Below are positions 20,966 to 50,986 of a stretch of DNA of 64,000 nucleotides, in pieces. The stretch is taken from positions 21,577,998 to 21,641,997 of the forward strand of contig CM075767.1 in NCBI GenBank assembly GCA_037974665.1, read 5' to 3'. The position numbers and the translations under genes are program-made. The notes under the pieces are model-generated. The model ran no database searches, was not told where the DNA came from, and saw only the letters and a list, made by a program, of their open reading frames with translations. How positions within the stretch are numbered: position 1 is the stretch's first letter; every line of letters starts with the position of its first letter. Source of the DNA: Ehretia macrophylla (Eukaryota > Streptophyta > Magnoliopsida > Boraginales > Ehretiaceae).

Positions 20966-22363
20966 TTAATTACTTAAATGCCAACGCGAGCAAATGTTTC
21001 TATTTGCTAAGCTATACACAAATTTACAATTAACAGAGATTTTGTCTCTAACATCATCAAAGATGTCCCTGATGATTTGTTCTTCTGATTTAGAGCCATT
21101 GCCATGAAGACGATTGTTGCGTTCCCTCCAAATGTGGTAAACGCTCGCACAAAAAGAAGCTTTCACTATGTTAGCCTTAAGGCCATTCTTCATCTCACTG
21201 ATACGGTGGATCATTACCTCCCATCTAACATTGAGACTACGCATCTTGAAAAGATCAGTAAGTGTCTCCAAATTCTTTTAGAGAAAGAGTAATCAAAGAA
21301 AAGGTGATCCCGACTCTCCATACCCAAACCATAGAATTCACAATTTGCATTGGTAATGACACCCCAGTTGAGAAGCCTCTATTTAGTAGAGCAACGATCA
21401 AGGCACATAAGCCATGAACAAAATCCGTGTTTTGGAATCACACATTTGTTCCAAACAAAAGAAGCCCAATGAACTTCATTTCTTTTCTTTCTAATGATTT
21501 CCCAGGTTGAGTGAAAAGAAAACTCACCTTTGTCATCAGCAAACCAACCAATTTGATCATCCTCATTTGCAGGACTGAAGGAGTCCACAAGATTATGCAC
21601 AAAGTGAAGATTAGGAGGCCACTGCCACTGCCACTGCCCCGCAACAATAAATTGATCCATCTTTACGTTAATTAATTCAATAGGCCTATGGAAAGATTAT
21701 TCATTTCAGCATAATGCAAGAGATTACCCGTAGGAAGACATGGATCCCAACATAACATCATTTTCTTACCATTACGCACTTTATGTCTTATGAACTTGTT
21801 TGCAACCTCTCGACATTTAAGTAAATTCTTCCATGTCCAAGTCGCTTTGGCTGGAATATCAACACTCCAAATGTTAAGCTGATTCAGAAGCACACGGTTA
21901 ACCCAATAACCCCATAACGAATGACCATCAAAGTAGGTATGCCAGAACTGTTTAAGAAGGCAACTTGATTAATCTCATGAATACAGCGAACACCTAATCC
22001 TCCTTCCTTTCTAGGTTTGGTAAGCTCCTTCCACGCCACTTTAGCACCTTTTGCGTTATCACCCCCTCATTTCCAAAGGAACGCAACCAATTTTCTCTCA
22101 ATCTCATGGATAACCCCCTTTGGAAGAAGGAAGACATTGCACCAATAATGTGTCACACTGGTGAGAATTGAATTGATAAGCTGAATTTTCCCTGCAAACA
22201 ACATCCATTTGTTGGTCCAACACTCAATACGAGCAGTAATTTTATAGCAGAGAATATTACAGATATGTTTGTTGAGTCTTCCGGTAATCAATGGTACTCT
22301 TAAGTACTTGACAGGAAGCTGCCCAAGGCTAATATTCAAAGAATCAGCCAGGTGGGCCTTCAT
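20966..22363 (-). pseudogene. LINE ORF2 C-terminal part (RT thumb and zinc-binding region)
   Basis: The pieces are 22067-22363 (LPVKYLRVPLITGRLNK, WTNKWMLFAGKIQLINSIL, thumb-like), 21672-21893 (SVDIPAKATWTWKNLL, CREVANKFIRHKVRNGK), 21379-21660 (GEFSFHSTWEIIR, then FVWNKCVIPKHGFCSWL, the plant RT zinc-binding region) and 20966-21271 (VYHIWRERNNRLHG). They follow in LINE order but change frame at each junction. Confidence 0.85.
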
Positions 22364-23490
22364 ACTCTTACTACACCCCCTAATAAAATATCACATTTGA
22401 GATTATTGATGCTGAGACTTGACATTCTTGAAAAGATGTTGAAGGCTTTAGAAATAATTTTCAATGAAGCAAAATTAGCCTTGGCAAAAATCAACAGATC
22501 ATCAGCAAATGCTAAGTGATTCAGCCTTGTCTTCTTGCATTTTGGATGAAAACTGAATCTTCTTATGCATGCACCTTTGTTGAGAAGAGAAGATAACACT
22601 TCCATACCAATCACAAAGAGGTATGGGGAAAGGGGATCTCCTTGTCGAAGACCCTTTTTCCTTGTGAAGAACCTTTCAAGCTGACCATTCACAACCACAG
22701 AGTAAGATGGTGAGGTAATGCACATTTTTACCCTCCTCACAAAACATTCAGGAAAGTTAAGGGCCCTAAGACAATTGAGAATGAATGACCAGTTGATGGT
22801 ATCGTAGGCTTTCATAATGTCTAACTTGACAATGCATCGCAGGCGGACTCTCTCACGACCATAGTTCCTCACAAACTCATGGGCAATAAGAACATTGTCG
22901 AGAATTTTCCTCCCATGAATAAAGGCTGACTGATTCTTTGAAATAATACCATCCAGAGTGTCTTTCAGCCGGTTAGCAAGAACTTTAGAAATGCATTTGT
23001 ACATCACATTACAATAGGAGATAGGGCAAAAATCTTGGATCTGAGAGGGATTCTCCACCTTAGGAATTAGATTAATAGCAGTGGCGTTAATCTCTCTAAG
23101 TAATTTTCCAGCCAAGAATGAAGACTTAACAGCCTGACATAAATCTTCTCTGATAACTTTCCAAGCATTTTTTAAGAAGAAAACAGAAAAACCATCAGGG
23201 CCTGGAGCTTTATTGTCATCGATAGAGAAAAGAGCTTCTTTGATCTCTGTATTAGTGACTGGTGCCTTAAGCTTATTGTGCAATCCAGTAGGGATGGATT
23301 TAGAAACCAAATCTCTGAGATCTCTAACTGTGTAGCTGTCATAGCTACTATTTTCTTTACCCAACAAATCAGAGAAATAACACACAACAACTTGTTTCAC
23401 TTCTTCCATAGAGGATGTATACGTGTCATTAGTTTTGATAAAATAGTGGATGTTGTTCCTGACTCTGTTACTGGTGGTCCTAGATAACCT
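22360..23490 (-). pseudogene. LINE ORF2 reverse transcriptase domain
   Basis: The frame reads NKAPGPDGFSVFFLK, INLIPK, FCPISYCNVMYKCISKVLANRL, QSAFIHGRKILDN, KLDIMKAYDTINWSF, RQGDPLSPYLF and the catalytic FADD. This is the classic L1-type RT order. LINE RT copies element RNA at a nicked chromosomal target. The block is open for more than 370 codons, but upstream the frame runs into the inserted element, and the endonuclease part lies beyond it. Confidence 0.93.
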
Positions 23491-25059
23491 AAGAGGAGAG
23501 GAAGGGAGGGGAGGGGAGGGGGGGAGGGGGGGTGAATTAGGTTGTTTGGCAAGGTTAAACAATTTAAAAATTCTTGATGCGGAAATAATGTCTAATAAAA
23601 TATGATAATATTCTAGAAGTTCTTGTAGGCAATTTATCAAACACTTAGTGAGCACATAAGTATATAATACTAGATAAGCAATTAGAACTTCAAAAATAAA
23701 TTTCAAATAGATGACTCAACAATTATCAAGCAATTAATATGAGCAATATCCACACGAAGGTAAATGACTTGAAAATAAAGAAAATAGAGTAAGAGAAATC
23801 AAACACGATGATTTTCAAGTGGTTCACACTCCCAGATGCCTAGTCCACCACCTAAGGTCTTCCCTTCCCTTAGGATTTAACAACTCTTCACTAAGATGCT
23901 TCTTCAAATATTGGTGAAACAAAAAACCAACTACAATTACTCTTGAGTCAAGAGTTACACAAGCTCCTTCAAGTGTAGGTGAAGCTTAACCTACTATCCT
24001 CTCTTTCTTTGAATCCACAAAGGATTACAATCCTTCTTCTCACAATGATTCTCTCAATCTATGTGAAAGAATATATTACAAAGATTGTGTGATAAAATGA
24101 ATGACAATTGCAACTCCTATTTGAGTTTGATATTACAATTGAAGAAAAACTTTGAATGTTCAAAGATATGAAAATGATAGCTCAAGATTTCTCAATGAAA
24201 ATAATATGAAAAGCTCTTTGAATTAGCTTAGAAATATGAAGATTAAGGCTTGGAGATGTGTTTGAGATGATGAGAGAGCATAGCTTAAAAAGAGTAAAAA
24301 GTTAGACACAAAACGGATATAATGCAAAAATTTTGGATTTTCCCGTTAAGCCATCCGGTCGTTGAGTCCTTCATCCGATCTACCGGATGGGGCAGGTAAC
24401 GCCTAAACCAGAGCTCTCTGCTGGGCGTTGTGACCTTCATTCGGTCAACCGGATGAAGCTAGTAACGCCCGAATGCTTAAAATGCTGAAAAGTCACATTT
24501 TTTAGCCCCAAAACAATTTGATAAATAATAAAGCATTTGGGAACTTTTGAAGACACTTATAAAGAAGTCTTTCTAGCATTTTTAACATCTCAAAATATTT
24601 TCAAAAACTCTTTAAAAAGATAAATAACAATTTTTATACCACAAGAGTTTGAAATCTAAAAAGTCTTGTTTTTCAAAATAGGTTTGTAATGACCTTTTGA
24701 AAATAAAAAATTTATAAAAAAAACATTTTGGAGAGATTATGAGCTACACGAGTCATACTTAGGCAAACAACATTTTATTAGCCGGTACCCCTTATGTCAC
24801 CACGTGTTCTTTCTTGTAACTCCCTTTTTATCATCGTGTCTTCAATTTCAATTCTTCGGGTCTTCATAACTTGATTTCTCATGACAGACCAATATTGACT
24901 TTGATCATTTTGAATGACTTCATGTTGGAGTGGGCTTACTTGACAATCTTGTGTTGATGGATTAAATGATTTACCCAATATTCAAATAATAATTCTAAAT
25001 CACAATCAAGATGTTTTGTTATTATCAAAATAAAGATTATAAGCTTTTCAGGCCAACAA
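23491..25059. mobile_element. Insertion of about 1.57 kb inside LINE ORF2, unclassified
   Basis: LINE coding sequence stops matching after RTTSNRV-type codons (23490) and resumes at FHKVIKG (25061), an uninterrupted stretch in related LINEs. The boundaries carry taacct and ttacct, a possible worn short TSD. One end is strikingly G-rich (23497-23531). The middle contains repeated cggatgaa / ccggatg motifs (24350-24470). The other end reads ttgttattatcaaaataaag. No frame of note is present. It resembles non-coding plant repeats with a G-rich start, but I cannot name the family. Confidence 0.6.
23497..23531. repeat. G-rich tract, potential quadruplex
   Basis: Successive runs of four to seven G separated by single A (gggaggggaggggaggg and more). 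They lie at the very end of the insertion in the LINE. Confidence 0.75.
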
Positions 25060-26075
25060 TTACCTTTGATCACCTTATGGAAGTAAGAAGAATTTAAATC
25101 ACCATCTTTGATCCACTTAATTCTAGCTTTCTACTTCAACATTGAATCCTCCTTCAAAAGCACTTGGCCCAATTGGGACCTGATAACTTTCTCAAGCTCA
25201 ATGGAATGATTGGAATGGTGGCCATTAAGAATTTGTTCCTGGATCACAGAGAGACTATCACAAAGGCTATTAATAGTATGCTTAATATTCTTAAAGTGTT
25301 CAAGGTTGAAACGCTTTAAGTCTGCTTTCACAGCTTTGTGTCTTCGGATGAAGCAAAACATAGGAACCCCAGTAAATTGTCGTTGCCAAGCATTCTCAAT
25401 TAAAGGAGGGTATTCTTCGTGTAGAGCCCAAGCTTTATAGAATCGAAAAGGTACAACTCTATGAGATTGTTCTTGACTGGTAGAAAGAATCAGTGGGCTG
25501 TGATCAGAAATCGAAGGTATCTCCACTCTGGCATATGACTACTCGAAGTGTAAGAACCACTGATGATTAACCAAAACCCTATCAAGTTCGCGAGCTAACT
25601 CTCTTTGAAATCCACCGACCCAATTGGCAAAGCATTACATCTGATCCTTTCCTCAATTCTCAAAATCTCATTGAAATCCCCAAGAGCACAAAGAGGATAA
25701 TCATTGAACCTAGAATTCCATTCTGCGATTTTAAACCAAAGTCTCCTTCTATCCAAGTAGTCATTGCTACCATAAACAAAGCACACATACCATACCTGGT
25801 TATCACATAAAGAGCAACACTGACAAAGGATGGCTTGATCGCAAGCATCAATCATCTGAAAATTGATTTTGTTCTTGTCCCATAAGACCCTTACTATTAT
25901 TCACAAAACCCCAGTCTTTAAATTTACCAGTTGCAACTTTCTGGGCATTGTTCAACTTGATTCTAGTTTCAAGTATACCAAAAATCTGTAGGTTCATTCT
26001 ACGAGCAAAAAGTTGGACCTCTTTTTGCTTGGAGGCTTTATTCATACCCCTTATATTCCAAACACCAACCTTCAT
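25060..26075 (-). pseudogene. LINE ORF2 endonuclease domain
   Basis: The ATG at 26075 opens MKVGVWNIRGMNK, the start of an AP-type endonuclease, followed by an ETRIK motif. After a frameshift near 25850, 25595-25855 gives VCFVYGSND and LCALGDFNEIL. After another break, 25131-25526 gives PSISDHSPLIL. These are the catalytic N, E, D and SDH motifs in order. A stop (TAG, after MLK near 25128) precedes IKWIKDGDLNSSYFHKVIKG. The enzyme would nick target DNA to prime reverse transcription. Confidence 0.9.
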
Positions 26076-27476
26076 TAGGATTTATCGGGGGAATGGGGAT
26101 TTAGCCGTGGATTATCCACTGAAGTTTGCCCTACCTTAAACTCATTAACTAGTTCATTTAGAGGAACCTGGTCAAGATCAAGAGCATCATATTTATTAGA
26201 CAAAGTTGTAGTTTTGTCCAGATGTTTACCATTGGTAGAGGTTGACTTTTGCGTCGTCTTGGAAGTGCTTGCAGTATTTTTGGACCCTGCGCCTTTGTTC
26301 TTACTTTGGACATCTTTCCATCCATCATCAGGTTGCTCAGTTTGTCCAGTGTCCTCGTTGTTAAGAGTGTTCTTTACCAGGTCCTTTGATTTGTTCCTCA
26401 ATAACATCTGTTCGGTTAGGATTAGCCTGCCAAACCTGTTTCGTCTTGTGGCACTGAGACCCCAAATGACCCAGCTTGTTACAATATTCGCACCACGATG
26501 GCTTCCAAATATACTCAACTTCAACCATGATTTTATTACCACCCCCCATATCAAGAGGAATTGACTCCCTGGTTTTTTTTTTTCATGTCAACTTCCACAC
26601 ACACCTTGGCATAACTAAGCCTGGTTTTTGCCTTGGTAGTAGCATCCATTTGGAGTGGATTTCCCAAAGCACTTGCTAGTAGGTTGAGTCCTCTTTTAGT
26701 CCACATCATAGGAGGTACCTTCCTCAACTTGACCCATATAGGGATACTATCAGATTTAAAGCTTTCCCATTGAAGATTAGGCTTCCATCGATGAAGTAGA
26801 AGAGGTTTGTCATTGACATGCCAAAACTGCTCCAATACTTTCCTGCATTTATCCTTATCTTCAAACTTGAAAATATATAACCCCTCAATTCCTGACTTAA
26901 TCTTAACCTTCCCATATTTCCTCCATTGGGAGTCAACAACTGCTTTGACAGCATAATAGGATGGACTTTTATCCATGAACTGTCCCACCAGACATGAGCT
27001 CCAGTAAGTTTTCCCCTCATCTATGACATCTTGGGATGGCCTAACCACAATGTCACCATTTTCCACATCGAGCTCTTAAATTGACCCTCAAATAGGTACT
27101 TCCAAGACTTAGGATCTTGCTTTAGTGTTGAATCCTCTGCATTAAGAGAAATATCCACTTGAGACGGCCAAAGAGAGCTAGGAACATCCACAGCACCTAG
27201 TGAGAGAGTTGGAAATTCTTCTCCATCTGCGAGATTCACTGACCTAGCAGGAGGTACCGTTGACGATAGAGGGGCTCTAGAAGAGCTGGTCTCAACAGTT
27301 TTAGGACTGAAATCGAAAGTCCCTGCAGCACACTTAGTCACAAGTGAGGAGGGGGGTGTGGAAAGACAACCAACACGCCTCGAATTCGCCGGTGAAGAAG
27401 ATGGAGATGGCACTAACGGACCCTCCCCATTTCTCGCCGAGGATTTGGTCGACGCTATAGGTTTCCTCCAAGCCAT
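26075..27476 (-). pseudogene. LINE ORF1 (RNA-binding, DUF4283 and CCHC)
   Basis: Starts MAWRKPIASTKSSARNG at 27476 with a Ser/Pro-rich N-terminus. A frameshift near 27060 leads to the DUF4283-like block (27066-26551: GDIVVRPSQDVIDEG, LYIFKFEDKDKCRKVLEQ, LASALGNPLQMDATT). A slip in an A-run (26571-26580) shifts into the knuckle CEYCNKLGHLGSQCHK (C-X2-C-X4-H-X4-C) at about 26480. The last frame carries a Lys/Ser/Thr-rich tail to 26075. Plant LINE ORF1 proteins of this design bind the element RNA. Confidence 0.9.
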
Positions 27477-27598
27477 GAGCTCATAACGAAACCCGGATGG
27501 AGCTTAGGGACGGTATGGTAATGTGTATAGGTTACAAGATTTGAGGTATGGTTGTCTATTTGAGAAGAGTTAATTTGGTTTTTTTATTCTTTACAATT

Positions 27599-28047
27599 GT
27601 TTATCTTTAAAATGTTACAATCTCCTTAATTGAATTTTTTGGCTAACAAATATTAAATTTCTGGCTCTGTGGCCTAAATATATATCATTTAGAGTCAACT
27701 AATCCGCTTGTGGTATAGTAGTTGTGTGGTAATTAAGACTCCGCCCCTTCTTCTTTAAAAAAACTGAGCCCAGCTATTAATTACACCAAACATAGGACTA
27801 GTAGAAAGATCCCAAGATTCATATAACAGTAATGGAAATGGTTGCCGATCTAAGACAAAAGAAATTGAAATGAAAAAGGACGAAAGAACTTCGTAAAAAA
27901 TCACATCCTCGCTCAAGTACTAGTGCTGGCTCTTAATCATCGACATAATTTCCACTTATTGACCGTGTGCTATAGAATGACGAAGGCCATTTTTAATTTG
28001 TCTTTGGAAAATTAATCTTGATGGATCTGGTAAGGCTGCTTATCCCA
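27599..28047. repeat. Dispersed host segment, copy P2 (start)
   Basis: Non-coding. About 27740-28047 resembles 2650-2830 plus 3845-3900 (copy P1) and 38553-38625 (copy P3: ttatagaatgatgaaa, aaggtttcttatcctatact). Copy P2 continues at 28926 after a LINE insertion. Confidence 0.6.
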
Positions 28048-28061
28048 TACTATTTTAGTAG

Positions 28062-28911
28062 TTTTTTTTTGCTAAATAAGCAAAGTGTTTCCATTAAAAC
28101 CAAACTCAAAACATGTACAAGTTTCTACCCAAAAATTTCCAAAGTGAACACTATTACATACAAATATCACCCAAGCTCCAATTTAAACAAAGAATATTGT
28201 TCAACAATGATCTCCTATATTTCTTACCCCCAACTAAATTCAGTCTCACTAATTGCATAATTTCCTTTTTTAGTTGCTCTTTTGAGTTAAACTTTTGACT
28301 GAAAATTCTGTAATTACTTTCCCTCCAAATGACATACATAGTAACACAAACAACAACCGAGTAAGATATGGTTGAAGCTCATCTCCTTTGCAAAATCTCC
28401 TAGTCCAATCTCCAATATTTTTCCAGGATGGCAACTGAGGTGGAATGAGTGCCAAACCAAGCCCATACTCCCATATTCTCCTACTCATTCCACATTGAAA
28501 GAACAAATGGTTTCTATCCTTATTGGCCAATCCGCAAATAACACATATTATCATCCGTAATACCCCATTCAAGTAGTCTAGTCTTCATAGGAAGTCTATC
28601 AAGAATAGCCACCCAAGTAATAAAGCTGCATTTAGGAATATAGTTCTTACTCCACACCAAATCATGCGAAGGCACTTTTGTCGCCTTATCTCTAATACAC
28701 TCCCATGCACTAGCAAATGTAAAAAGACCATTATTTCTACCTTTCCATCTGATTTTATCATTCAAAGAGCAAACAGAAGCGAAGTTAATATGGCTACCAA
28801 TCCTCTGAAGAATCGGGATAGCAGGCCAATGCCAACTACCATTGCAAATCACCTTCACAACCTTACCGCACCAGCTAATACCACAGTCCTCAATCTGTTG
28901 CCAAGAAACGC
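28062..28911 (-). mobile_element. 5'-truncated LINE, 3' end only
   Basis: A perfect 14-bp TSD, tactattttagtag, flanks it (28048-28061 and 28912-28925). The minus strand ends in an A-run (T-run 28062-28070). It holds only the C-terminal zinc-binding region of a LINE ORF2: FTFASAWECIRDKATKVPSHDLVWSKN, CSFITWVAILDRLPMKTRLLEW, then CVICGLANKDRNHLFFQC (a Cys/His knuckle-like motif), in two overlapping frames (28520-28858 and 28270-28572). It differs in sequence from the full-length LINE to its left. Confidence 0.9.
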
Positions 28912-28925
28912 TACTATTTTAGTAG

Positions 28926-30748
28926 GGGCATGTAACTACTATTTTAGTAGTTACATGGTATTTTGTAAGCAAAATTTTAATAATTTCTTAGTACTGTGGT
29001 TTGATTCACTTTGAGTCAAAAGAAGGAGACGGATTAGAAAATCTTTTTCATTTGTTTTCAACCACTTTTCCTTTTCTTTTCTGTTTTTTTAACTTTTGAG
29101 CTACTTTTATATCTTTTGCTTTTGTGATAAAAACTTCAAACTAATCAAGTTACAATTTTTCTCATCTCTTGGGGGACACTCTTCAATTCAGATGGTTAGA
29201 CTGTTCGAACCTCATATGAGTGTAGAGTCCATACCCTATGTGAGGTCAGGACGGTCCAACCATCCCAATTGAAGTAAATTAATTTCATCTCTTCATTTTC
29301 TTTCCACCTCCTCTCATTAAACACATGTCTTCAACAATCTCTTGTAGCAAAAATAATTTATACAGAATACATACAACATAAAGATTTGACATATACTAAT
29401 GAGAGAAGAGAGGAGAAATGAAGAGAGAAAGAGAGAGAAGAGTAGGAGAAATGAAGAAATGAGTGAGAGACGAGAAAAGAAGAAAAAAATGTGAAATGTT
29501 GGGTTAAAACAGAAACGCTGGGCAAGGACCCAAATGTTAATATCCAGTATACCACTTATAAGTGTCCATTTAACCTCATTCTAACCCTAACCATTCTCCC
29601 AAAAATTTCAGATTTTTTTCTATTATATAGAGACAAGACTTTGACAGAAATTGTGAACAAGTGAGTTATAATCTTGGTGTTCCTCATAGCTTGACCTCAT
29701 TTGTATAAGTATTTCGTACCCAAATGAGCTTATCTGTTCATAATTCTTGCCAAAGTAGTGTCTCTTCTAAAATTTTAGAAAGTGACTAGAGTTAGAGTGA
29801 GGTTAAATAAGTATTATGCATGATATACGGGGTATGTAATATTTAGATTTTCACCCAACAATTTCGTTTTAATCCAACGTTGTCCTTAGGCCATATCTCA
29901 TTCAATTTAAACCAAAGTGATCTTGTTGAAAGTGAAAAATATAGTAGAAAAGTTCAAAAATTAGTCAAGAAAAATGAAATAAAGAAGATTTTCAACCAAT
30001 CAAATGATTTTGTTCTTTCAGATCGAATAGTGGAGAGGATCCCTCATCATCATGAGAAAAAAATCCACGGTAGATTTTCTAACGTACCAAAGAAAAGAAT
30101 TAGAAAAAGCTACAAACACGGGAAAAAATTCTTATGTGAACTTGAATCAAATGAGGAGGAACACAAAATGCACATACCTCTCTATGTTTGACCCATTCCA
30201 GAATGAACTAACGCATCCAACGATAATGGTGCATTGTATATTGAGATGAGTGTCCATTGAGATAAGTTCAGATTCTTAAGTAGCGATTAGTAAACTCGAA
30301 TAAATTTTAATATGAATGGAATGAGTTAAAAAATGGAATGTAATTAAGAATAAAATGAACTTATAAATGAGAATGACATACTTGGTATGCTCTAGAAATG
30401 AAAATTAGAATTGATATATTAATTCCAAACCCATGTTTGGTAGTCACTCTACAAGAATAGTAATGTAAATGATTTGTATAATATGGCATGATTACCCTTT
30501 CATTATTATAGTATTAAAAATAAGAATAAACATGAATATAACCGTAAACAACATAAACATAATAAATAATAGTAGTAGTAGTAGTAGTAATAATAATAAT
30601 AATAATAATAATTATTATTATTATTATTATTACTATTATTATTATTTTAATTTATTATTATTATTTATAATGATAATAATAATTATTTATTTTAATTTTT
30701 ATAATAATAATTTTTGTTTTTTAATATTATTAATACTATTATTAATAC

Positions 30749-30783
<35 letters not shown>

Positions 30784-31200
30784 CAAAAGAAACTATATAT
30801 AAAAGTTATATTTTTTGGGATATATTAGTCATTTTAAAAATATGTATATTCTCAAGCACATGATAATGAACTAATATCATATGTTTGTTCTGAAATGGTT
30901 AATCTCATATATGGAGGAACGTGATTATCTTAGAAATGTGATTTCCAAGTTCATTCATTCATACCAAGTATGAAAATCGAAATAGAGTTGAAAATGTCAT
31001 TTCATATTCTCAACCTCATTCTAATGTACCAATTGCTACCTTATACATTGTCTATTGAGATTAGCTCACATGAGAATCTTCCATAACTCAATTTCGCATT
31101 TATCATCCTTGTTGCTATCTTCTCATGTTACAACTATTTTTAATTTTATCAAAACCTTGTGATAACCTTTTTTTTCCTTTTGTTATGATATCCCCTAATT
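28926..31200. other. Copy P2 host DNA, non-coding
   Basis: Parts at 29170-29460 (gacactcttcaattcag, aataatttatacagaatacatacaacataaag, gagagaagagaggagaaatgaag) are collinear with 38705-38990 (copy P3). A short imperfect hairpin occupies 29180-29275. The frame at 29880-30191 (103 codons, Lys-rich, no ATG at its start) matches nothing I know and is probably incidental. Confidence 0.55.
30569..30780. repeat. Trinucleotide microsatellites
   Basis: (agt)n(aat)n(att)n near 30571-30650 and (tta)n/(att)n near 30735-30780. The 119-codon Asn/Tyr/Leu-run frame across them is a composition artefact. Confidence 0.9.
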
Positions 31201-31221
31201 AGGTATTTCAACAGCCCTCCT

Positions 31222-32150
31222 GCTATGGGAGCGGATCCTCTCATGTCATGGGGTTGGTCATACCGATATGAGAGGACATCTCAGTCATTAAAATAAGGCG
31301 TTAAAATAAAATAAAAAATCATAAGTTTTATTATTTTTTTTTCCAAAACTCTGCATTTTTTCTCTTCTCATTTTGTCTCTTTCTTCATTGAATGCTTTTT
31401 TTTTTTGTCACAATTAAATACTCTCACCTTAACACATTAAAATGCTTTCAATACAAGTGTTTTTTTTTTTTTTGTTCTTGATACAATTCACTAAAAGTTC
31501 AACTCAACCGTTAAATATTCTTCTTCAAATATCAACCGTTCGTTTAAGGGTTTAGTGATATTTTTTCAAAAAAAAATTACTATAAAAATGTGTGTTAGTA
31601 TTTTAGTGTCGATATGAGTTTAGCCAAAAAAAGAATTACTTAGCAAAAAATATAGGTTTAGTAATAGTTTCTGTAAAAGAATTACTTGGCAAAAAAATAT
31701 GGGTTTAGTGATAATTTCTGCAAAAAAATATAGATTTAGTAATTATTCTTTTGGCTAAACCTATATTGAAACAAAGACTAACACACATTTTTACAATAAT
31801 TTTAAAAAAATTATCACAAAAATCTTAAACAAACGGTTGAGATTTGAAGAATGATATATTTAACGACTGAATTGAATTTTTAATAAATTGCATCAAGAAC
31901 CAAAAAATAAAATAAAAAATTGTGTGTAATAGTTAGAGCATTCGTGTTGATTTAGTGTATTAAGGTGAGAGCATTCAATTCTAAACCAAAGAAAAAGAAA
32001 AAAAAATGCATTAGATGAAGAAAGAAACTTAATGAGGACAGAGAAAATGCAGGTTTTTGGAAAAAACAATCATGATTTTTTTACTTTAATGGCTAAAATG
32101 TCCTCTCATGTCAGACATAACCAATCCTATAAGATAATCTACTCCCGCTA
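31222..32150. mobile_element. Long fold-back element, about 930 bp, arms about 430 bp
   Basis: Left-arm blocks such as ctcaccttaacacattaaaatgc, tcaactcaaccgttaaatat and aaaaatgtgtgttag reappear inverted in the right arm (gtgtattaaggtgag, atatttaacgactgaattg, ctaacacacatttttacaa). Arms run about 31222-31650 and 31730-32150. The tips are gctatgggagcggatcctc and the inverse of actcccgctac. I found no clean TSD. It is non-coding; a transcript would fold into a very long hairpin. Confidence 0.75.
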
Positions 32151-32490
32151 CATATATCTTTGCAGTGATGAAGAATAGCAAGATTTTTAACAAGCTTTAG
32201 GTTCAGAAAGGACATGACCAAAAAAAAAAAAAGGTTCAGAAAGGACCTAAATGCTAGATAAGGGCAATAAATTATAGCACAACCGTTGAAGTGTGAATAC
32301 ACCATGAGATTATGGATTAGCCCAGAGTTGCAATCTTCGAGATTACGGAACTATGATATACACCCTTCATTTGTGTGCTTTAAAGTCATTTGACTCCGAC
32401 ATAATGTAAGTTAACAAAACAGAAGGAATAATTTTCAATCCGCCAACCCATTCGGTTGTGTGTCATGCGGTGGGTGTTATATGGCCCATA
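32151..32490. other. Copy P2 host DNA, non-coding
   Basis: Around 32280-32335 (gttgaagtgtgaatacacc, gattagcccagag) it is collinear with 40115-40200 of copy P3. It ends at the insertion point of the gene-capturing LTR element. Confidence 0.55.
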
Positions 32491-32495
32491 TGCAC

Positions 32496-32878
32496 TGTTA
32501 TGGTTTTAGATTTTAGGGAGAGTTTATCACACCAAAAAGAACAGTAGCTGAATTGTTTGCTTGCAGTAAACAAATGAAGAAAAATTGTAGAGAAAAGTAA
32601 ATAAGAAGAAAATAGCAAAAGTGATAAAGTGTATTCTTAGCCCTCTCTGTTACATCACTCCTTGTTATATTCTGCTTTCATACATCACATGACAAAAGAA
32701 ATGACTAACCATTTCTAACTAACAGGACACGTAATCCTTCAGGTATTGAGTCGTGACTCTTGCTCGTGAGCTCTTGCTAGCAGCTGGCCTTGATGGACCA
32801 ACAACTGAATTGGGCTCTGTAGCTTGGATTGGATCACTATCACCAGTGGAGCAGTCCACAACTATTGGGGCTATAACA
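32496..32878 (-). repeat. 3' LTR of the gene-capturing element
   Basis: About 5% diverged from its partner by my hand alignment (roughly 19 substitutions and two short indels). TG...CA ends. Confidence 0.93.
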
Positions 32879-33304
32879 TTACCTCTCTCTTTTGAGAGAA
32901 CCTTGTCCTCAAGGTTCAGATTGCAAACATGCAGATTATCCCCAAAAAAATTAAATTGAGCTGTTGTTATGTCATCCCGAATATGAGCATCCTTATTATG
33001 TGGCAAACTACTTGCAAGTGAAAATACAGCATGCACTCTCACACAATGAGTATAACTCTCAGTAGTAGTAGCTTTCAATGCCTTATCTAAGGCTGAGGGA
33101 GCTTCGACATGATCATTACGTAGTATCTTATGAAGTGAAAAGCTCAGTAGCCCAAATACATCATCACTCTGGCTACAATTGGAGCACCAAGCCATTAGAT
33201 TTGATTCAGAAGGTACATGCGGTGAACTCCAAAAGCTTTCATCATTTATGTTGTCTACAGTTTCACTTTGACAATATCGCACCTTCCAGACAGAATGGAA
33301 CCAT
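32879..33304 (-). pseudogene. 3' interior of LTR element: unidentified fragment and gypsy-like tail
   Basis: The frame 32719-33348 continues from the mannosidase piece into sequence I do not recognise (WFHSVWKVRYCQSE, then FGLLSFSLHKILRN, about 33304-32960). It ends with CNLNLEDKVLSKERGN, similar to the short coding tail gypsy elements carry before the polypurine tract, and then runs into the LTR. The unidentified part may be one or two more captured fragments. Confidence 0.45.
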
Positions 33305-33513
33305 CGATCCATTACTCCTTGGCCAAGCCCACGCCCATCATCGCTCATTAATCACCGATCAAGCATTATCTCAAGCCATCCATTTTTAAGCCTTGCCACA
33401 CCCAATGACTGTCGGGTATGAACAGAGAAGCCTTGTCCATTTGATCTTTGGATAAATGCAAGAGCGGGCATTGGGTAATAATTTCCATGTAAAGAGATCT
33501 TGTCATATGTCTC
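33305..33513 (-). pseudogene. Captured fragment of Golgi alpha-mannosidase II (GH38)
   Basis: The minus-strand translation reads ETYDKISLHGNYYPMPALAF, QRSNGQGFSVHTRQSLGVA, LKNGWLEIMLDR, a short break with a stop, then DDGRGLGQGVMD. This is the C-terminal beta-rich region of plant class II alpha-mannosidase, which trims N-glycans in the Golgi. Only about 65 residues are present and none of the catalytic domain, so there is no enzyme. The sequence is close to the parent gene, so capture is not ancient. Confidence 0.8.
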
Positions 33514-33630
33514 TGTACGAGAGGCCTGATCTTCGTCGTCAAAACTTTCCAATTTTTCCCATTTTTTCCATCCTAAACTCCAAGCTTTATCCGTCATTTT
33601 CTCCAATATAGAAAAGTTTTTCGTTCTATT
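33514..33630 (-). pseudogene. Captured fragment of unknown origin
   Basis: About 39 residues (NRTKNFSILEKMTDKAWSLG, WKKWEKLESFDDEDQASRT) lie between the TBC and mannosidase pieces in the same frame as both. I do not recognise the parent gene. The composition is that of ordinary coding sequence. Confidence 0.4.
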
Positions 33631-34209
33631 CAACCCAACACTCTCAGCCAATTGTCGTGCCTTCACCTCAGATACTCTAGCCTGAGATAGCGAATAGACA
33701 ATCCATTCAAAATTTGCCCGAACAGCATCAAGGCGTATGATACGCTGCTATGTGGCAAAATCTTCTAATGTTTGGGGTCTTGGCATACTTTCTGACTTGC
33801 AAAGGTGGGACTCAACTTGCTCATCAAGATCACTTTCTTCAGATTCCGCCTTTGCAAGCAAAGGTTATGTGTCTTTAGGCTCATCAGAAAAGTCAAAATT
33901 AGAATATTTAGTTTCACCTTCAGGGATAGTTTCATTTATGATAGCACTCTCCTCACTATCCTGCTCCAGAAAAGTACTCGATGTTCGAAGACTTGCACTT
34001 CTATCATAATCTTCACCCGCTGGGTTCGCTTTGTCAACAGAAGCAGAAATCTTAGCACTAACAATTTCTTCGAAGCCTGGCGGATCTAGCACTTGACCAA
34101 AATTACCACTGTCCTCATTATTGTCGTTTCCAGAAGTTTCCATTATCCTGAAACTCCTTTCACCTCGTTTTGAAATTTGTCGATACTGTCTTCGTAGGTT
34201 CACATATGT
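33631..34209 (-). pseudogene. Captured fragment of a TBC-domain RabGAP gene
   Basis: An acidic, Ser-rich stretch (EDSGNFGQVLDPPGFEE, TFLEQDSEESAI, YSNFDFSDEPKDT) leads to QRIIRLDAVRANFEWIVYS and ARQLAESVGL, the entry to the TBC GTPase-activating domain of a plant TBC1-domain protein. A stop after PKDT (33865) and another replacing a Trp before QRII interrupt it. The catalytic Arg/Gln fingers of the TBC domain are not included. The parent protein would switch off Rab GTPases in vesicle traffic. Confidence 0.7.
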
Positions 34210-35025
34210 TAACCATGCCCTCAATGCAAGACTCTCTAGCTTTTGCAACACAACGCCAAGACAAGGGAACCCAATGTATTTCTCATTCTTCTTATAGTCC
34301 TCCAGAAAATGAAAGACAACCATTGTTGGAATCACACAACCAATGTTTTTAACACAAGAACATTTGTCACACTCTTCCCCTATAGCTAGAACCTTAGCCA
34401 GATATTTCATATTATCTCCTATTCTTTTCACCTTAACTTGAGTAGCATCTTCAACGCAATGAGCATTTGTCAAAAGCTTTCCTTCCCTAATCATGAAAGC
34501 ACTTCCAGTGCTAGTGTATTGTCTTTCATTTTGCCAAAGAAGAGAATAGTTCGGTGCAGTATGGGTGCCATAAACCTTCACAACAGCACTAAGAAAATCA
34601 GTATCTTGAAGATCACCTGATTCAACAATCGTAACCACCTTGTAATCATTCTTAACTGGATCAAACCTGAACCCAAAAACATGCTTGTATCGCCCATACG
34701 TCACAAAAGTAATTATGGGACTCGAAAAACAAACCCATCTTGTGATACAGGGGTTCCATAAGACAGTACAATGTCTGTTATAAGTAAATTTATCATCATT
34801 AAGGCACACCAACCAATTACAACTACCAACTGACGATGAAACAATCTCGTGATTCGCATCAATAAGAACATTCAATAACAAATTATAACAAATCGTTTTG
34901 GGTTTAAACCCAAATTCTTTTTCCATAACATCAAGTATACGAATAGATTCATTATAAAATTCGAATTTCGCATAACATTCGATGAAGAAGAAAAAAGTAC
35001 CATCACTTATGTTAACTGCTAAACC
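33865..35025 (-). CDS. Chimeric open frame: PPR, F-box-associated, DegP2 and TBC pieces
   Basis: One frame stays open for 386 codons (first ATG at 34926, 353 codons). In order it holds: 35010-34852, a PPR-type stretch (FIECYAKFEFYNESIRILDV, CYNLLLNVLIDA); 34851-34609, an F-box-associated domain (SCNWLVCLNDDKFTY, VLWNPCI, FGFRFDPVKNDYKVV); 34608-34363, the N-terminal protease part of chloroplast DegP2 (AVVKVYGTHTAPNYSLLWQ, GKLLTNAHCVEDATQVKVKR), keeping the catalytic His; 34362-34210, a later DegP2 part (GCVIPTMVVFHFLEDY, YIGFPCLGVVLQKLE) joined directly, so the Asp and Ser of the triad are missing; then the start of the TBC piece. It lies in the same frame as the gag-like frame upstream, separated by one TAG at 35028-35026. 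Whether it is expressed is unknown; a protease or F-box activity is not expected. Confidence 0.75.
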   Translation of the reverse strand, partial: GLAVNISDGTFFFFIECYAKFEFYNESIRILDVMEKEFGFKPKTICYNLLLNVLIDANHEIVSSSVGSCNWLVCLNDDKFTYNRHCTVLWNPCITRWVCFSSPIITFVTYGRYKHVFGFRFDPVKNDYKVVTIVESGDLQDTDFLSAVVKVYGTHTAPNYSLLWQNERQYTSTGSAFMIREGKLLTNAHCVEDATQVKVKRIGDNMKYLAKVLAIGEECDKCSCVKNIGCVIPTMVVFHFLEDYKKNEKYIGFPCLGVVLQKLESLALRAWLTYVNLRRQYRQISKRGERSFRIMETSGNDNNEDSGNFGQVLDPPGFEEIVSAKISASVDKANPAGEDYDRSASLRTSSTFLEQDSEESAIINETIPEGETKYSNFDFSDEPKDT

Positions 35026-35586
35026 CTACTTCAACTCATTCATGCCTAGAAGTTGTTTGCTGAAATGCTCAACCCAGAGAATGTACGAATCGCTTATGAT
35101 TTGCTTGCGTTGCTCCTCGTTGTCATTTGAAGAGATCTCGTCGTTGATCATCTGACCCAAAGTATCTTCGTTGGATTTCATTACCATATCGTGGCAAGAG
35201 GTATGGTCTTTCGACGTAACAACAATTGGTGGAAGAACTTGAGGACCCATGATAGTGGTGATTGGAGAGCTCACTGATGAAATAAGCGGAATTGTCGAAG
35301 CTATATCGTGGACGAACCCTAGAAGGGTAGTAGGTGTTGTCGCCGATGATGTTGTAGAAGAGGTCGTCATCATCGTTGATGACATAGAAGAAAGGGCATT
35401 ACGTTCCACGAATTTCTCCGCAAGGAACAGCAACTGATCAAGTTTGCCATCAATCGTCGTGAGTTTAGAAGCTAGGGCGCCAAGTGTTTGTTGAAAGTCA
35501 TCGGGCTTTCGAGTATTCTGTGTTGTAGTTTGCAGAAGCTTCGTTACCGCGTCATCCATGGCATTGAGTCTGGTACCTTCAGCCAT
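35026..35586 (-). CDS. Gag-like N-terminal frame of the LTR element
   Basis: 186 residues starting MAEGTRLNAMDDAVTKLLQT, right after the primer-binding site, as gag begins in plant Ty3/gypsy elements. A coiled-coil-like stretch (LGALASKLTTIDGKLDQLLF) is followed by a Ser/Thr/Pro-rich low-complexity region and an acidic end (NDEISSNDNEEQRKQ, SDSYILWVEHFSKQLLG). No CCHC knuckle or retrotransposon gag core is present, so it is a truncated gag or another captured piece. It ends with an amber codon in frame with the chimera. Confidence 0.6.
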   Translation of the reverse strand: MAEGTRLNAMDDAVTKLLQTTTQNTRKPDDFQQTLGALASKLTTIDGKLDQLLFLAEKFVERNALSSMSSTMMTTSSTTSSATTPTTLLGFVHDIASTIPLISSVSSPITTIMGPQVLPPIVVTSKDHTSCHDMVMKSNEDTLGQMINDEISSNDNEEQRKQIISDSYILWVEHFSKQLLGMNELK

Positions 35587-35606
35587 GGAGTCAATGAAAG
35601 CACCAA

Positions 35607-35993
35607 TGTTATGGTTTTGGATTTTAGGGAGAGTTTAACACACCAAAAAGAAGAATAGTAGCTGAATTGTTTGCTTGTAGTAAACAAATGAAGAAAAATT
35701 GCAGAGAAAAGTAAATAAGAAGAAAATAGCAAAAGTGATAAAGTGTATTCTTAGCTTTCTCTGTTACATCACTCCTTGTTATATTCTGCTTTCATACCTC
35801 ACATGACAAAAGAAATGCCTAACCATTTCTAACTAACAGGACACGTAGTCCTTCAGGTATTGAGTCATGACTCCTGCTCGTGAGCTCTTGCTAGCAGTTG
35901 GGCTTGATGGACCAACAACTAAATTGGGCTCTATAGCTTTGGGCTGGATCACTATCACCAGTGGAGCAATCCACAACTATTGGGGCCATAACA
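35607..35993 (-). repeat. 5' LTR of the gene-capturing element
   Basis: Partner of 32496-32878. On the minus strand it is followed by the primer-binding site at 35606-35591. Confidence 0.93.
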
Positions 35994-35998
35994 TGCAT

Positions 35999-36922
35999 AT
36001 TTCTAATCGGATGACCGAATGTCGGATTGAATCCTAACCCCAAGCCAAAATCATCTCAAATAAATATGATGTGAAATTTTGGCCTTCCACCACATATTAT
36101 TGTTTGATACCAAATCAAGAAAACCACGATGATTCTTTATATATAGTGAGAAGAGTTTAATATAATATGTTTTTACTAAAAAAATGGTTATGATTTTCTT
36201 TTTTTTAGATGAGGGTGTGCTGCACATTTGATTTTTTGTTAATTGCTTCAAGGCAGTGATGGAACCAGGCACTGAAGGTCAAGGTGGGCACTACAGTAGC
36301 GTAGTCAGTAATCAAGGGTTAGAAGGTACTTATTTATCCATAAATCAATACTTAATTCAAACATATTATAGCATAAATAGATTCTTCAAGACATGAATCT
36401 CCCTCATGTAATATACTTTATAGCAATTATAAAAATTTAAGCATTAAAGCGTATATGGAGTACTCAATGCATAACTTTCCCTCATATAATAATGACATAA
36501 CATATAAAAGAGACAAAATAACTACTTGCAATTATTATAATAAATACAAAAAGTACCTTCTATAATTGTCCTCAATGTAACTTCATATTTTGAAATCGCT
36601 GAATAATTAACTCATTGTCGATAACATAAAATACATCTGTATCTCTGTGTAAATGACTAAGCAATCACTCATCCAAGACAATGCATATATGAATTAAAAT
36701 GACAAACATTAACTCAATCTATTAAAAAATAATTCAAATTAATATTAAACAACTATAATTAAAATTATTATTAAAAATTAAAAACAAGTATAACAAAAAC
36801 TAATAATAAACAACTATAAGTTTATACCTAAAACTAAAAAATAATAAACAACTACAACTAAAAATAAAAATTAATAAATAACTAAAACTATAAAAATAAA
36901 AAATAAAAACAACTATAGTCTA
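35999..36922. other. Copy P2 host DNA then A-rich non-coding sequence
   Basis: 36030-36115 (catctcaaataaatatgatg, ccttccaccacatattattg) is collinear with 40270-40340 of copy P3. From about 36720 the sequence is a run of imperfect aactaaaaataaaaa-type repeats. Confidence 0.55.
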
Positions 36923-37267
36923 TGTTGTAAAAGTATGGATATTTATTGGCAATAATTCTTTCAGAAGTAATACGTTATATGTCTATTGTAGGCTGGCATA
37001 TGACATTACAAGGAGAATACAAATTGATATTGAATTGAGAACTCACGCGGAAGAATTCATGGAAAAAAGCTGAAAATAGTTTTTGATCAAATATTATTTT
37101 AATGTAAAGTATTATCATGATGTCTTTAACAATGATGACTTTTTTGTTATAAATATGGATGTTTGATTCTTGCATTGTAGTGTGATATAAACAAAAACAA
37201 GTAGATTTTATATATGTATAATATTCTCTCAGATATTTTATCTATGTTATTATTATATTTTACAACA
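36923..37267 (+). repeat. LTR of Copia-2-like family, plus orientation
   Basis: Starts tgttgtaaaagtatgg and ends ttttacaaca (345 bp). It is followed by cattatcagcacgagtc, the same primer region as Copia-2, then an ATG at 37320. Confidence 0.8.
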
Positions 37268-37433
37268 CATTATCAGCACGAGTCTTTGCTAATTAGTTAC
37301 TCATTAGAAAGAGGAAGAAATGAATGCTTTGAATATTGGTAACTCACAATTGATCTTTTATCATGTTTTCTTAATTGCTTATTATATCGCTGATCTACTA
37401 TCCAAATTTGTTATTCTCTATCAAGCTCTACTC
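37268..37433 (+). mobile_element. 5' internal fragment of the LTR element
   Basis: Primer-binding region and the first codons of a gag-like frame (MNALNIGNSQLIFYHVF from 37320). It ends where an inverted LTR copy begins. Confidence 0.6.
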
Positions 37434-37905
37434 AAGAATCAAACATCCATATTTATATACAAAAAGGTCATCATTGTTAAAGACCTGATGATACTTTACA
37501 TTAAAAAAATATTTGATCAAAAACTATCTTCAGCTTTTTTACATGAATTCTTCTGCGTGGCTTCTCAATTCAATATCAATTTGTATTCTCCTCACAATGT
37601 CATATGCCAGCCGACAGTAAACATATAACATATTACTTCTGACAGAATTGTTGCCAATAAATATTCATACTTTTACAACACTCCCCCTTGGATATTTATA
37701 GCTTAAAAATATGCCTCTTTAAAAATCTTGTCAAGAAAACCCAATGGGATAAAAAACTTGACGATAGGAAAATAGTACATTATTCTTATTTCACTTGCCT
37801 CGTTAAAACCTTACCATAGGAAAAACCCTGTGAGAAAATCCGGGAATAAGATACAAAAGCAAGTGAAAGAATTGTCTATTTTTTCTTTCAGTTCTTTCTG
37901 ATAAT
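37434..37905 (-). mobile_element. Inverted truncated LTR plus 3' internal end
   Basis: 37434-37680 is the inverse of about the first 250 bp of the LTR at 36923. 37681-37905 (ctcccccttggatattt, two copies of the aaaaccttacc...ggaaaaaccc motif) is the 3' internal end seen in Copia-2 at 8941. The two LTRs are head to head, not in the direct orientation of an intact element. Confidence 0.75.
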
Positions 37906-38540
37906 TATTTTATAACAATCTATAACTAGTTCCAATAATAAACAACTTAACTAAAACTAAATATAAAAATGAAAAAAAAAATAACTAAAACAAAAGATAA
38001 TAAATAACTATAACTAAAAATAAAAATTAAAACTGCACTCTAAAAATAGAAACAACTATAGCTAAAACTTATAATAGCTAAACTAAAAATAAATAATTAT
38101 ATCTAAACCCAAAGTAATAACCAAGTAAAACTAAAAATAGAAAATAAGAAACAAGTAAAGCTAAAAATAAAAAATAAAAATAAGTCAAAATAAAAATAAA
38201 AATAAAAATAAATAAATAATTATACATTTTACCTTGAGATGAACTTTGAGTGTGTTGGGAACGGGGACCTAGATGGGGTTTAATATTTATTGAAACTTGA
38301 AAGCGAATTTTGAGTGGGTTTTGTATGGTTTGAGAATTGAGTGAAGTTTGCGTTGTGTTTGGTGTGGAATTGGATAGGTGGAAGCGGAACCTTGAAGGTA
38401 TACTATACATAAGAGAAAGTCGAGTCTAACTTGCTTTTATGTTTTTTTTTTTTTAATAATAAGAAAAAATTACTAAAATGCCTCAGTTAATGAGGGGTAT
38501 TTCTGTCTGTGCGTAGGCGTACTCTAGGCTCCATGTGCCT
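37906..38540. other. A-rich non-coding sequence
   Basis: More imperfect aactaaaaataaaa repeats, of the type found left of 36922. The 110-codon minus frame at 38078-38410 is low-complexity and not credible as a gene. Confidence 0.5.
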
Positions 38541-48398: not shown

Positions 48399-50986
48399 AT
48401 GGATGATGATAATTTTGGCATAGTGGAGAAGGATGACCCTATATTAGTAGTAGATAGTGAAGGAAACCATATATTGTCTAAAGAAATTGTACCCTATGTA
48501 GATAAAAACATGTTTGGAAATATTTTTGAGGCAGAAACTGAACAATTTCTTTTAGACATTGTAAGATGCTCAAATCAGTATGATGTAGCAGAAGCTTCTG
48601 TGATAGGTGCAAAAAATGCAGAAAATGTGACTACAGATAATGTCATAGGAGTAGATCATGTAGGTGATGTTAGAAGTGATGGCTTTGGTGCTTCTGGTGA
48701 TGTTAGGAGTGATGGATTTGGTACTTTAGTTCAGGTTGATAGTGATGGTGTTGGTGGCTCAGGGCATGTTGAGACTGATTGTGCTAAGGGTTCAAGGCAA
48801 GTTGACACTAATGTGCATGATTTCGAGACATCTGACTCTGACTTTGTTCCAGAAGATAGGCCTTTATCAGACTCAGACTCCAGCAATCCTAGTTGGTTAT
48901 TTGATGATTTTGAAGGCTCAAATGATGATAATATCTTTGATGAATCAAGTGAGTGTCAATCAGGCAGAGTAAAATACAAAGCTTTTAAGAAGAAATCTGG
49001 AAAAAGAGTAAAAGTACAGACAGACAGAGCAACAAAAACATCGGCTACTGAGGATTGGTATAGTGATGTGTCTGATGATGAACTAGGAAATGTAAGGGGT
49101 TTTGATGATGATGTTCAGCGACGTGTTCAGCCACAAAGTTTTCCTGTGTTTAATGAGAAGACGGAAATGAAATATTTTGAAATGGAGATTTGGATGTTGT
49201 TTAAGAATGCAGCTGAGTATAGAGTAGTATTAAGAGATTGGGCTGTAAGAAAGGGTTTTGAACTGAGCTACAAAAAAATGACAAGCAAAGGGCAACTGCT
49301 GAATGCAAGAATGGTTGTACTTTCAGAATACATGCTAGCAAGTTGAAAGGTGTTGACACATTCATGGTAAAAACACTTAATGGTGAGCATTCATGTGGGA
49401 GGAGATTTGATAACCAGCTTGCAAACTACAAGTATTTGGGAAAGAGAATGGAGGCTTATGTGAGAGACCACCCAAATGAAACCACAACCAAGTTGCAATA
49501 AAAAATATATAGCAAGGTTAAAGTAACAGTGAACAAATACAAGGCAATGAGGGCTAAACAGATTGCATTAAAGAGAATTCAAGGCGATTGGGATGAACAA
49601 TACAGTAGATTGAGAGATTATTGTGAAATAGTCAGGGTTTATAATCCTGGAAGCACACTACTTATAGGGGTGAATAGAAGTCTTCCTGACCCTATATTTG
49701 AAAGGATGTTCTTCTCTCTTGGTGCGATGATAAATGGTTTCTTGGCAGGATGCAGGCCTATAATTGGATTGGATGGATGTTTTTTGAAAACTGTCTATGG
49801 GGGACAACTACTTGCAGCAATAGGGAGAGATGGGAATGACAATATATATCCAATTGCATTAGCTGTAGTCATAATCGAGAGGAGGGAAACATGGTCATGG
49901 TTTTTGAAAGAGTTGCACAATGTGATTGGTGACCCAATTGAACATGGATGGACCTACATATCTGATAGACAGAAATGATTGTGTGAGGTGTTCAAAGATG
50001 AGTATCCAAGGGTACATCATAGATTTTGCTTAAGGCACATGTATGAAAATTTCAAGTCTGAGTTTCCAGGGTTATTATTGAAAGACCTCTTCTGGAAAGC
50101 TGCTTCAACAGCAAATGTGAATGAGTTTGAAAGAATTATGAAAAGTATTCAAGCAGCAGATCCAAAGGTTAGTATAAAGAAGTGTGCATATGAATGGCTT
50201 GCAAGAATCCCTGCTGAAACTTGGGCCATATCACATTTCCCGCTTGGTCCTAAGTGTGATATATTGGTCAATAATCTCTGTGAATCTTTCAATAACTACA
50301 TTTTAGATGCCAGAGATAAACCAATAATCACCATGTTTGAGATGATTAGAGCAAGACTGATGAACAGACTTCAAGTAAAAAAAATAGCAATGGAAAAGTA
50401 TAATGGCATCATTTGCCCTAATATACTTAAAAAATTGAAAATTTTAATTGATGTTGCTAAAGGTTGGCATGCAAATTGGGCAGGATATGAAGAGTATGAA
50501 GTAGCTCAGAATTGGTATAAACATAGTGTGAACCTAGCTACCATGACATGCACTTGTGGGATGTTTCAGTTTACAGGGTATCCTTGTTGTCATGAAATGG
50601 CATGCATAAACACTTACAGGAAGAAAGTGGAAGATTTTGTTCATACATGTTACACTAAAGATGTGTATTTAAGTGTATACCAATACATGGTTCATCCTGT
50701 CCCTGGTCCAAATGATTATGTGAAAACTAGTTCAGAGTCTTTGAAACCACCCATTGTTCATAAAAGGACAGGCAGACCAAGAAAAATGAGGAGAAAAAGT
50801 GCAGATGAGAGGAATAAAAGTTCATCTAAAAAGGACAAAACTGCAAATCAGAGGAGGAAAAGTTCATATAAGAGGAATGAAAGTGTAGATGGCCATGAAA
50901 CCAATACTATAATCTCAACAAGGAAATGATTTGTCATAACCTGCAGCAAATGTTTGAAGCAAGGGTATAACAAGTCTTCTTACTGT
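48399..50986 (+). pseudogene. MuDR/MULE transposase, decayed
   Basis: An acidic N-terminus starting MDDDNFGIVE (Asp/Gly/Val-rich repeats, then DFETSDSDFVPED) leads to a MuDR DNA-binding-like domain (MLFKNAAEYRVVLRDWAVRK). After a one-base frameshift in an A-run near 49276 the frame resumes with AECKNGCTFRIHASKLKG, GEHSCGRRFDN. The MULE core follows: CRPIIGLDGCFLKTVYGGQL (first Asp), GWTYISDRQK (second Asp) and NNLCESFNNYILDARDKP (Glu). A SWIM zinc finger, CTCGMFQFTGYPCCHEMACI, is at about 50550-50610. A zinc knuckle, CSKCLKQGYNKSSYC, lies past the last stop, with Tyr where His is expected. Lesions: the frameshift, TAA after TTKLQ (about 49500), TGA after SDRQK (49976-49978) and TGA after STRK (50927-50929). 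It would excise and insert MULE DNA, but this copy cannot make a full protein. Confidence 0.93.

Follow-up and report, generated by a model that had tools for sequence, protein, structure and literature searches.

How does a long terminal repeat (LTR) retroelement come to carry pieces of several host genes in place of its own pol genes, and why do those pieces lie in one open frame? The question is posed by the interval 32496-35993 of a 64,000-nucleotide stretch of Ehretia macrophylla DNA (hereafter the window), which occupies C4:21577998-21641997 of the host genome searched here (1.58 Gb, 20 contigs). This interval is a non-autonomous LTR element with captured host-gene fragments, its sense direction being on the minus strand.

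The preliminary description had reported two LTRs of about 385 bp, near-identical flanks, a primer site and a purine tract, and all of these were recovered (Table 1). The LTRs, of 383 and 387 nt, were identical at 363 of 383 aligned bases, with 4 further gapped bases (Kimura two-parameter distance, K2P, 0.055), and their termini, TGTTATGG..C(T/C)ATAACA, carry the TG..CA ends. The flanks TGCAC and TGCAT match at four of five positions, so a short target-site duplication is present in an imperfect form. The primer site adjoining the 5' LTR pairs without interruption over 15 nt with the CCA end of a host tRNA-Thr(AGT) gene; a pattern derived from the primer-site complement picked out three host loci, and ARAGORN, run on one of them, returned tRNA-Thr(AGT). 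Plant substitution rates used for LTR dating are 0.7-1.3e-8 and, if they hold here, the LTR divergence would place the insertion of the window copy at about 2-4 million years ago. An Rfam scan of 30000-38000, a tRNA scan of the whole window and a plasmid search each gave no match.

Reverse transcriptase (RT), integrase and protease had been described as missing, and Pfam found none of them in the five sense pieces that it was given (the scan covered these pieces only, leaving the other frames out). The claim that pol had been swapped for host fragments held as well, with two additions: a gag-like start and a pol-like tail are still present in the element, and a single frame holds all its cargo. 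This start and tail are all that remains of a gag-pol of its own. Their labels rest on position, on inspection by eye and on resemblance to siblings and to the relative L012 (host-genome loci are cited by L numbers); neither was given a name by Pfam, and the gag piece had no match at E <= 0.001 in a protein search. The tail recurs in siblings and, by eye, behind the integrase part of L012. The RT, RNase H and integrase order of Ty3/gypsy elements is absent from the window element and present in L012 (RT, RNase H and an integrase-type SH3 domain), whose LTR end motifs and primer binding site are the same as those of the window element and whose LTR is 72-73% alike.

Between these ends the cargo was confirmed to read as fragments of six nameable host genes (PPR, RPT2, F-box-associated, DEG2, TBC/RabGAP and Golgi mannosidase II) together with unnamed pieces, all in sense. 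The order from start to tail is gag-like start, unk2, PPR, RPT2, F-box-associated, DEG2 in two parts, TBC, unkA, mannosidase II, unk8 and pol-like tail. The earlier list, comprising PPR, F-box-associated, DegP2 (DEG2), TBC and mannosidase II, stood in every entry and lacked RPT2. The two-part DEG2 matched the structure 4fln (E 4e-49), and its protein search returned 372 proteins; among the best 120 of the 372, plant DEG2 reached up to 79% identity where the proteins were named. The F-box and mannosidase domain matches are below cut-off and the RPT2 match is weak; each of these calls is carried by host-genome or sibling evidence. The F-box-associated match to TIGR01640 (E 4e-5) is below the NCBIfam cut-off (23.2 vs 37.9 bits), and its host matches cluster on contig C9, with an F-box domain in L041 and L045 and FBA_1 and FBA_3 in L045. 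The mannosidase II piece matched 1hty (E 3e-4), its Pfam domain falling barely under the cut-off (24.2 vs 25), and host genes lie on C7 and C2, the former with three GH38-family domains. The RPT2 stub is backed by siblings L022 and L056, in which Prot_ATP_ID_OB_C scores slightly above its cut-off.

The search for parent genes in the host genome, advised in the preliminary description, gave loci for four genes on contigs other than that of the window: F-box on C9, DEG2 on C19, TBC on C10, and mannosidase II on C7 and C2. The TBC gene has a paralog on C1, both loci with the RabGAP-TBC domain, and the window piece matches the C10 donor at 552/591 nt, 9 of the 591 being gap. The native DEG2 gene spreads, as 12 matched pieces, over about 12 kb of C19, and C17 holds a paralog. 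Residues 124-212 occupy 267 nt in the window, whereas the native pieces for them extend over about 4.5 kb and are separated by three or more gaps; residues 313-361 span one further native gap. At least four native introns are thus missing from the window DEG2, whose source was therefore a spliced mRNA. Siblings gave similar results: L054 has TBC exons fused exactly at the native C10 intron (177 nt, GT..AG; C1 has an intron at the same place), a sibling at 19.7 Mb of C7 carries DEG2 residues ~124-580 in one intronless stretch, with frame changes, and in L025 PDI residues are continuous at a point where about 340 nt interrupt a PDI gene located at C7:102.8 Mb. The earlier proposal of capture at the RNA level is supported by the separate host loci of the four genes, by the absent introns and by siblings with other cargo.

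One part of that proposal failed. The joining of the two DegP2 parts had been taken to suggest cDNA recombination during reverse transcription. In the C7 sibling, the gag start and the F-box piece lie at 19.714 Mb, DEG2 and the tail at 19.724-19.726 Mb. What separates them is a nested insert, marked by a 5-bp duplication (GTTAC), and the F-box|DEG2 joint read across it is identical to that of the window. This sibling retains the DEG2 middle of about 290 nt that is absent in the window. The edges of the window gap fall inside native matched pieces (200-238, 305-341), near a short imperfect repeat (AGTGTGACA / AGGGTTACA). These edges and the retained middle show that the two DEG2 parts result from an internal deletion in an already captured cDNA and not from a joint formed at capture. 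Exon skipping was ruled out on the same two grounds.

Copies with like LTRs and different cargo, for which a search had also been suggested, do exist. The LTR gave at least 42 host-genome matches, two of which belong to the window itself (of 58 candidates, 40 were scored); 19 regions were fetched and nine analysed as LTR pairs, three of these (L013, L024, L025) with rough borders. Exact 5-bp target duplications flank seven other pairs (L009, L010, L012, L018, L022, L056, L057). L018 and L020 have the same left flank and may be one duplicated insertion. Host families above the Pfam cut-off in siblings were tubulin, thioredoxin/PDI, TOM1-3, aldose epimerase, triosephosphate isomerase, enolase, PNGase A, the proteasomal ATPase OB domain, copine, a proteasome subunit, PPR, H+-PPase and protein kinase. 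The cargo piece of L056 matched 1275 proteins, and the best 120 of them all carry the proton-pump domain PF03030, each over at most 22% of the query. Judged from such chains, elements with like ends bear different cargo and capture is a recurrent process in this genome, not a single event. The gag piece had at least 158 host-genome matches, 150 of its 847 first-look candidates having been scored. For the PPR-to-TBC piece there were 107, a number that includes native genes, and for the unk8/tail piece 103; these are matches and not elements, since some loci count twice and some frames may be gag-pol, and cargo was read at the named loci only.

Several loci of this family deserve separate mention. 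L057 combines PPR with pieces of a retroelement protease (RVP_2) and an integrase-type SH3 (SH3_Tf2-1), so that RNAs of other retroelements seem to be captured too. L010 holds, by eye, a nested Copia-like element, and L033 (C16:53.24 Mb) has the PPR/RPT2 part in three tandem copies within about 1.9 kb. A common gag|alpha-tubulin joint in frames of 679-761 codons marks another subfamily at C2:7542456, C4:15316574 and C19:29394953. Gag-start matches without stops lie in open frames of 760-1042 codons, either chimeric or gag-pol, at C16:13747532, C12:30532828, C12:51816567 and C5:34696300. At C1:5.02-5.60 Mb there is a local cluster of 23 unk8/tail matches in 0.6 Mb, eight of them in frames of 346-379 codons.

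The joints between fragments are shared by siblings to different depths. A sibling at C4:6.19 Mb has the gag-PPR-RPT2-F-box part in common with the window (85.6% over 985 nt), the C7:19.7 Mb sibling the F-box|DEG2 joint (DEG2 231/252), and one at C5:15136619 the unkA|mannosidase joint (229/259), which makes the mannosidase capture older than the window insertion. These nested and common joints, with changing downstream cargo, suggest that the chain grew stepwise. Fragment identities (F-box 175/202 to native L041, TBC 532/561 and mannosidase 196/208 to their donors), set against the K2P distance of the LTRs, make TBC and mannosidase look like late captures and F-box and PPR/RPT2 like earlier ones; this order is rough, as donor genes may change more slowly than the element. 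Bases overlap at the joints RPT2|F-box (TTGG), TBC|unkA (TTGAA) and DEG2|TBC (~AA).

We consider it very probable that the window copy belongs to a non-autonomous Ty3/gypsy-type element that is mobilised in trans and gained its cargo by repeated copy-choice in reverse transcription. Element RNA would be transcribed from the LTR and primed by tRNA-Thr, then packaged and reverse transcribed in trans by proteins of related gag-pol elements. Where a few bases match, the enzyme would switch to a spliced host mRNA packaged alongside, or to the RNA of a sister element, and would then return to an element RNA. The gag-pol middle would in this way be exchanged step by step for sense host cDNA, and the gag start with the primer site and the pol tail with the purine tract would be retained. 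The intronless sense fragments, the primer site and purine tract, the common nested joints and the domains of L012 all fit copy-choice with proteins supplied in trans.

Several observations weigh against this reading. Donor genes were located for neither PPR nor RPT2, and the fragments unk2, unkA and unk8 are without a name. Within the window, splicing is tested by DEG2 alone: the TBC piece comes from within a single donor exon, and at the captured part the mannosidase genes are open over 912 and 948 codons. The joint overlaps are short (2-5 nt), and three joints alone were legible against both sources. A clean target duplication was not seen for L013, L020, L024, L025 and L058, whose borders are rough, or for L054, whose LTRs are partly aligned. 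L012, the sole relative read with a full set of pol domains, is broken, and its LTR is only 72-73% alike. Finally, at least one stop, the TBC TAA, was already there at capture.

The stops lead to the second question. The internal 2728 nt form one frame with 4 stops in 908 codons, vs 32-103 in the other five frames, and in 1000 shuffles the best of three frames always had at least 35. The TAA of the TBC piece, present in the donor, is older than capture, and the TAG of the same piece arose after it, the donor having TGG. Seven blocks (PPR, RPT2, F-box, DEG2 twice, TBC, mannosidase) share one reading frame, which is the native frame of each; with free joints, six in phase would be expected at ~1/729 by our own arithmetic, for blocks not picked beforehand. 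Long single frames recur in L054 (1128 codons), L056 (769) and L057 (956), all with LTR pairs, and in L059 (943), which is known from its frame.

Selection on the encoded amino acids, to which dN/dS values below 1 in the cargo (e.g., 0.58 over 571 codons) might point, was rejected: these values are read as an artefact of substitution bias, the differences among codon positions being flat. In the longest comparison (L056-L059) they numbered 34/22/26 of 459 positions each. One of 37 comparisons reached p < 0.05 (gag start, L057 vs window, 7/6/18, p 0.014), no more than chance would give; non-significant leans to the third position were seen in the gag start of L059 vs window (7/6/15, p 0.07) and in the cargo of L055 vs L059 (8/8/17, p 0.09) and vs L056 (8/9/17, p 0.12). 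Among close copies of the L054 chain, which differ by few changes, dN/dS ranged over 0.36-1.10. Given no significant codon-position bias, the cargo proteins look unselected.

Openness of the frame could then be due to youth and chance, captured exons being open and in-frame chains drawing notice, an explanation to which we give an even chance. It agrees with the lack of detectable amino-acid constraint and with the inherited TBC stop, which counts against selection on the frame. So do the broken siblings, L013, L018, L020, L022 and L024 having 21-26 stops in their best frame and L025 having 13, and the loci with blocks in differing frames (some named blocks in L013 and L022, and in L009 the gag start relative to the cargo), which later indels could also explain. 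Furthermore, L054, L056, L057 and L059 were picked for their long frames. Opposed to it are the seven native-frame blocks of the window and L009, which was found via its LTR and has 2 stops in 559 codons. Opposed to it also are 81 PPR/RPT2 copies chosen regardless of frame: 64 are free of stops within the match, their open frames have a median of 291 codons over the whole set, and 17 of the 81 lie in frames of at least 500 codons, i.e., 21% vs 1.7% expected under random joint phase, in a model that assumes a spacing of 30-90 codons and for copies that are not independent, some being perhaps native PPR genes or gag-pol. The frames may simply be young, or openness itself may be maintained. Our tentative suggestion, which we hold at somewhat below even chance, is that this LTR lineage lives by serial accretion of spliced host mRNA fragments under selection on frame openness and not on amino acids. 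If so, openness might let the RNA escape nonsense-mediated decay or keep a gag-headed fusion translated, and the lineage would act as a natural device for shuffling exons; what it makes would be long and intact, would code for protein and would be disposable.

Assembly of the chain at the DNA level inside an LTR element, by a Pack-MULE, a Helitron or an end-joining patchwork, with copying afterwards, is very improbable. The short microhomologies at the joints would also fit end joining, and the window contains a gene for a MULE transposase as well. However, at least four DEG2 introns are missing, as are the TBC intron in siblings and the PDI intron, and among the sibling open reading frames (ORFs) scanned with Pfam, those in sense were alone in giving host families above cut-off, ten antisense ORFs yielding none at that level. 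Pack-MULEs and Helitrons hold several gene fragments per mobile element, copied from genomic DNA with introns included, whereas the window family lacks the introns that were tested and is bounded by LTRs. The least probable account, a host chimeric retrogene later flanked by LTRs, would suit the mostly open 908 codons but is opposed by the primer site, purine tract, gag-like start and pol-like tail at their canonical sites, by siblings with like ends and other cargo, and by sibling cargo differences without significant codon-position bias. Among the matches listed for the chain pieces there was no second copy of the whole chain.

The closest precedent is Bs1 of maize, also an LTR element with several host-gene fragments fused in a chimeric frame. 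Bs1 is said to be without pol. As in Bs1, fragments of at least three host genes lie in the window element without introns, the introns being tested directly for DEG2 only; it differs in that a single copy holds six or more named genes and that one genome has many relatives with other chains, and in being known from sequence alone. A review reports, for Bs1, three host genes and a chimeric gene that is transcribed and translated (PMC13317346). In the accessible parts of further reports, spliced mRNA of pepper NLRs is captured in LTR elements, some single elements with two or three genes (PMC5664825), and many genes lie inside LTR elements of rice and sorghum (PMC3726574). This retroduplication is alike in bringing spliced mRNA or genes into LTR elements, but one-frame chains of short internal fragments are not described for pepper in that part of the source. 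Plant LTR elements with additional ORFs likewise have extra coding sequence, the transduced genes being mostly sense according to the accessible text (PMC7264820), whereas capture here is repeated across one family. At the level of titles and beginnings of abstracts, mainly in the open literature, no plant LTR family of this kind was found, which is weak evidence of novelty.

In the reviews consulted, few cases of plant exon shuffling by LTR elements are named, Bs1 first. One genome with many relatives and layered, datable captures makes the capture rate, the choice of mRNA, the rules of joining and the retention of frame countable. Such loci could also pass in annotation as novel multi-domain genes.

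Table 1. Parts of the LTR element and its flanks, in window coordinates.
Feature	Position	Strand	Remark
Target-site duplication, left copy TGCAC	32491-32495	.	
3' LTR (element sense)	32496-32878	-	383 nt
Pol-like C-terminal tail (..NLNLEDKVLSKERG..KDYVSC)	32719-32966	-	crosses purine tract into LTR; named by eye
Polypurine tract AAAAGAGAGAGGTAA	32879-32893	-	next to 3' LTR; by eye
Unnamed fragment unk8	32967-33306	-	common to eight other loci, 75-84% aa
Golgi alpha-mannosidase II fragment (GH38 C-terminal domain)	33307-33519	-	donor-like gene C7:21556979, 196/208 nt
In-frame TGA in mannosidase piece	33352-33354	-	
Unnamed fragment unkA	33520-33633	-	match at C6:42607355
TBC/RabGAP gene fragment	33629-34210	-	donor C10:31658203
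In-frame TAG in TBC piece	33748-33750	-	donor has TGG
In-frame TAA in TBC piece	33865-33867	-	donor locus has same TAA
DEG2 protease fragment, second part	34211-34364	-	Perilla residues 313-361
DEG2 protease fragment, first part	34365-34629	-	Perilla residues 124-212
F-box-associated fragment	34626-34827	-	TIGR01640; native genes on C9 (L041, 175/202 nt)
26S proteasome subunit 4 (RPT2) stub	34824-34862	-	5vgz, weak, E 0.15
PPR repeats	34855-34998	-	structure match 6een, E 9e-9
Unnamed region unk2	35007-35356	-	common to L018, L020, L055, L059
In-frame TAG	35026-35028	-	in unk2
Gag-like N-terminus MAEGTRLNAMDDAVTK...	35357-35586	-	resembles siblings and L012, a gypsy relative (L012: 35% over 112 aa)
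Primer binding site TGGTGCTTTCATTGA	35591-35605	-	complementary to tRNA-Thr(AGT)
5' LTR (element sense)	35607-35993	-	387 nt
Target-site duplication, right copy TGCAT	35994-35998	.	

Other mobile elements share the window. On the plus strand, a MULE transposase and a SWIM zinc finger in adjacent frames (49502-50926) make up a Mutator-like element, and a Copia-type pol with an integrase core (below cut-off), a retroviral SH3 and RVT_2 extends over two frames at 16951-19823. On the minus strand, 22363-28918 holds a LINE-like RT (RVT_1), zf-RVT and DUF4283 in separate frames, in a decayed state.

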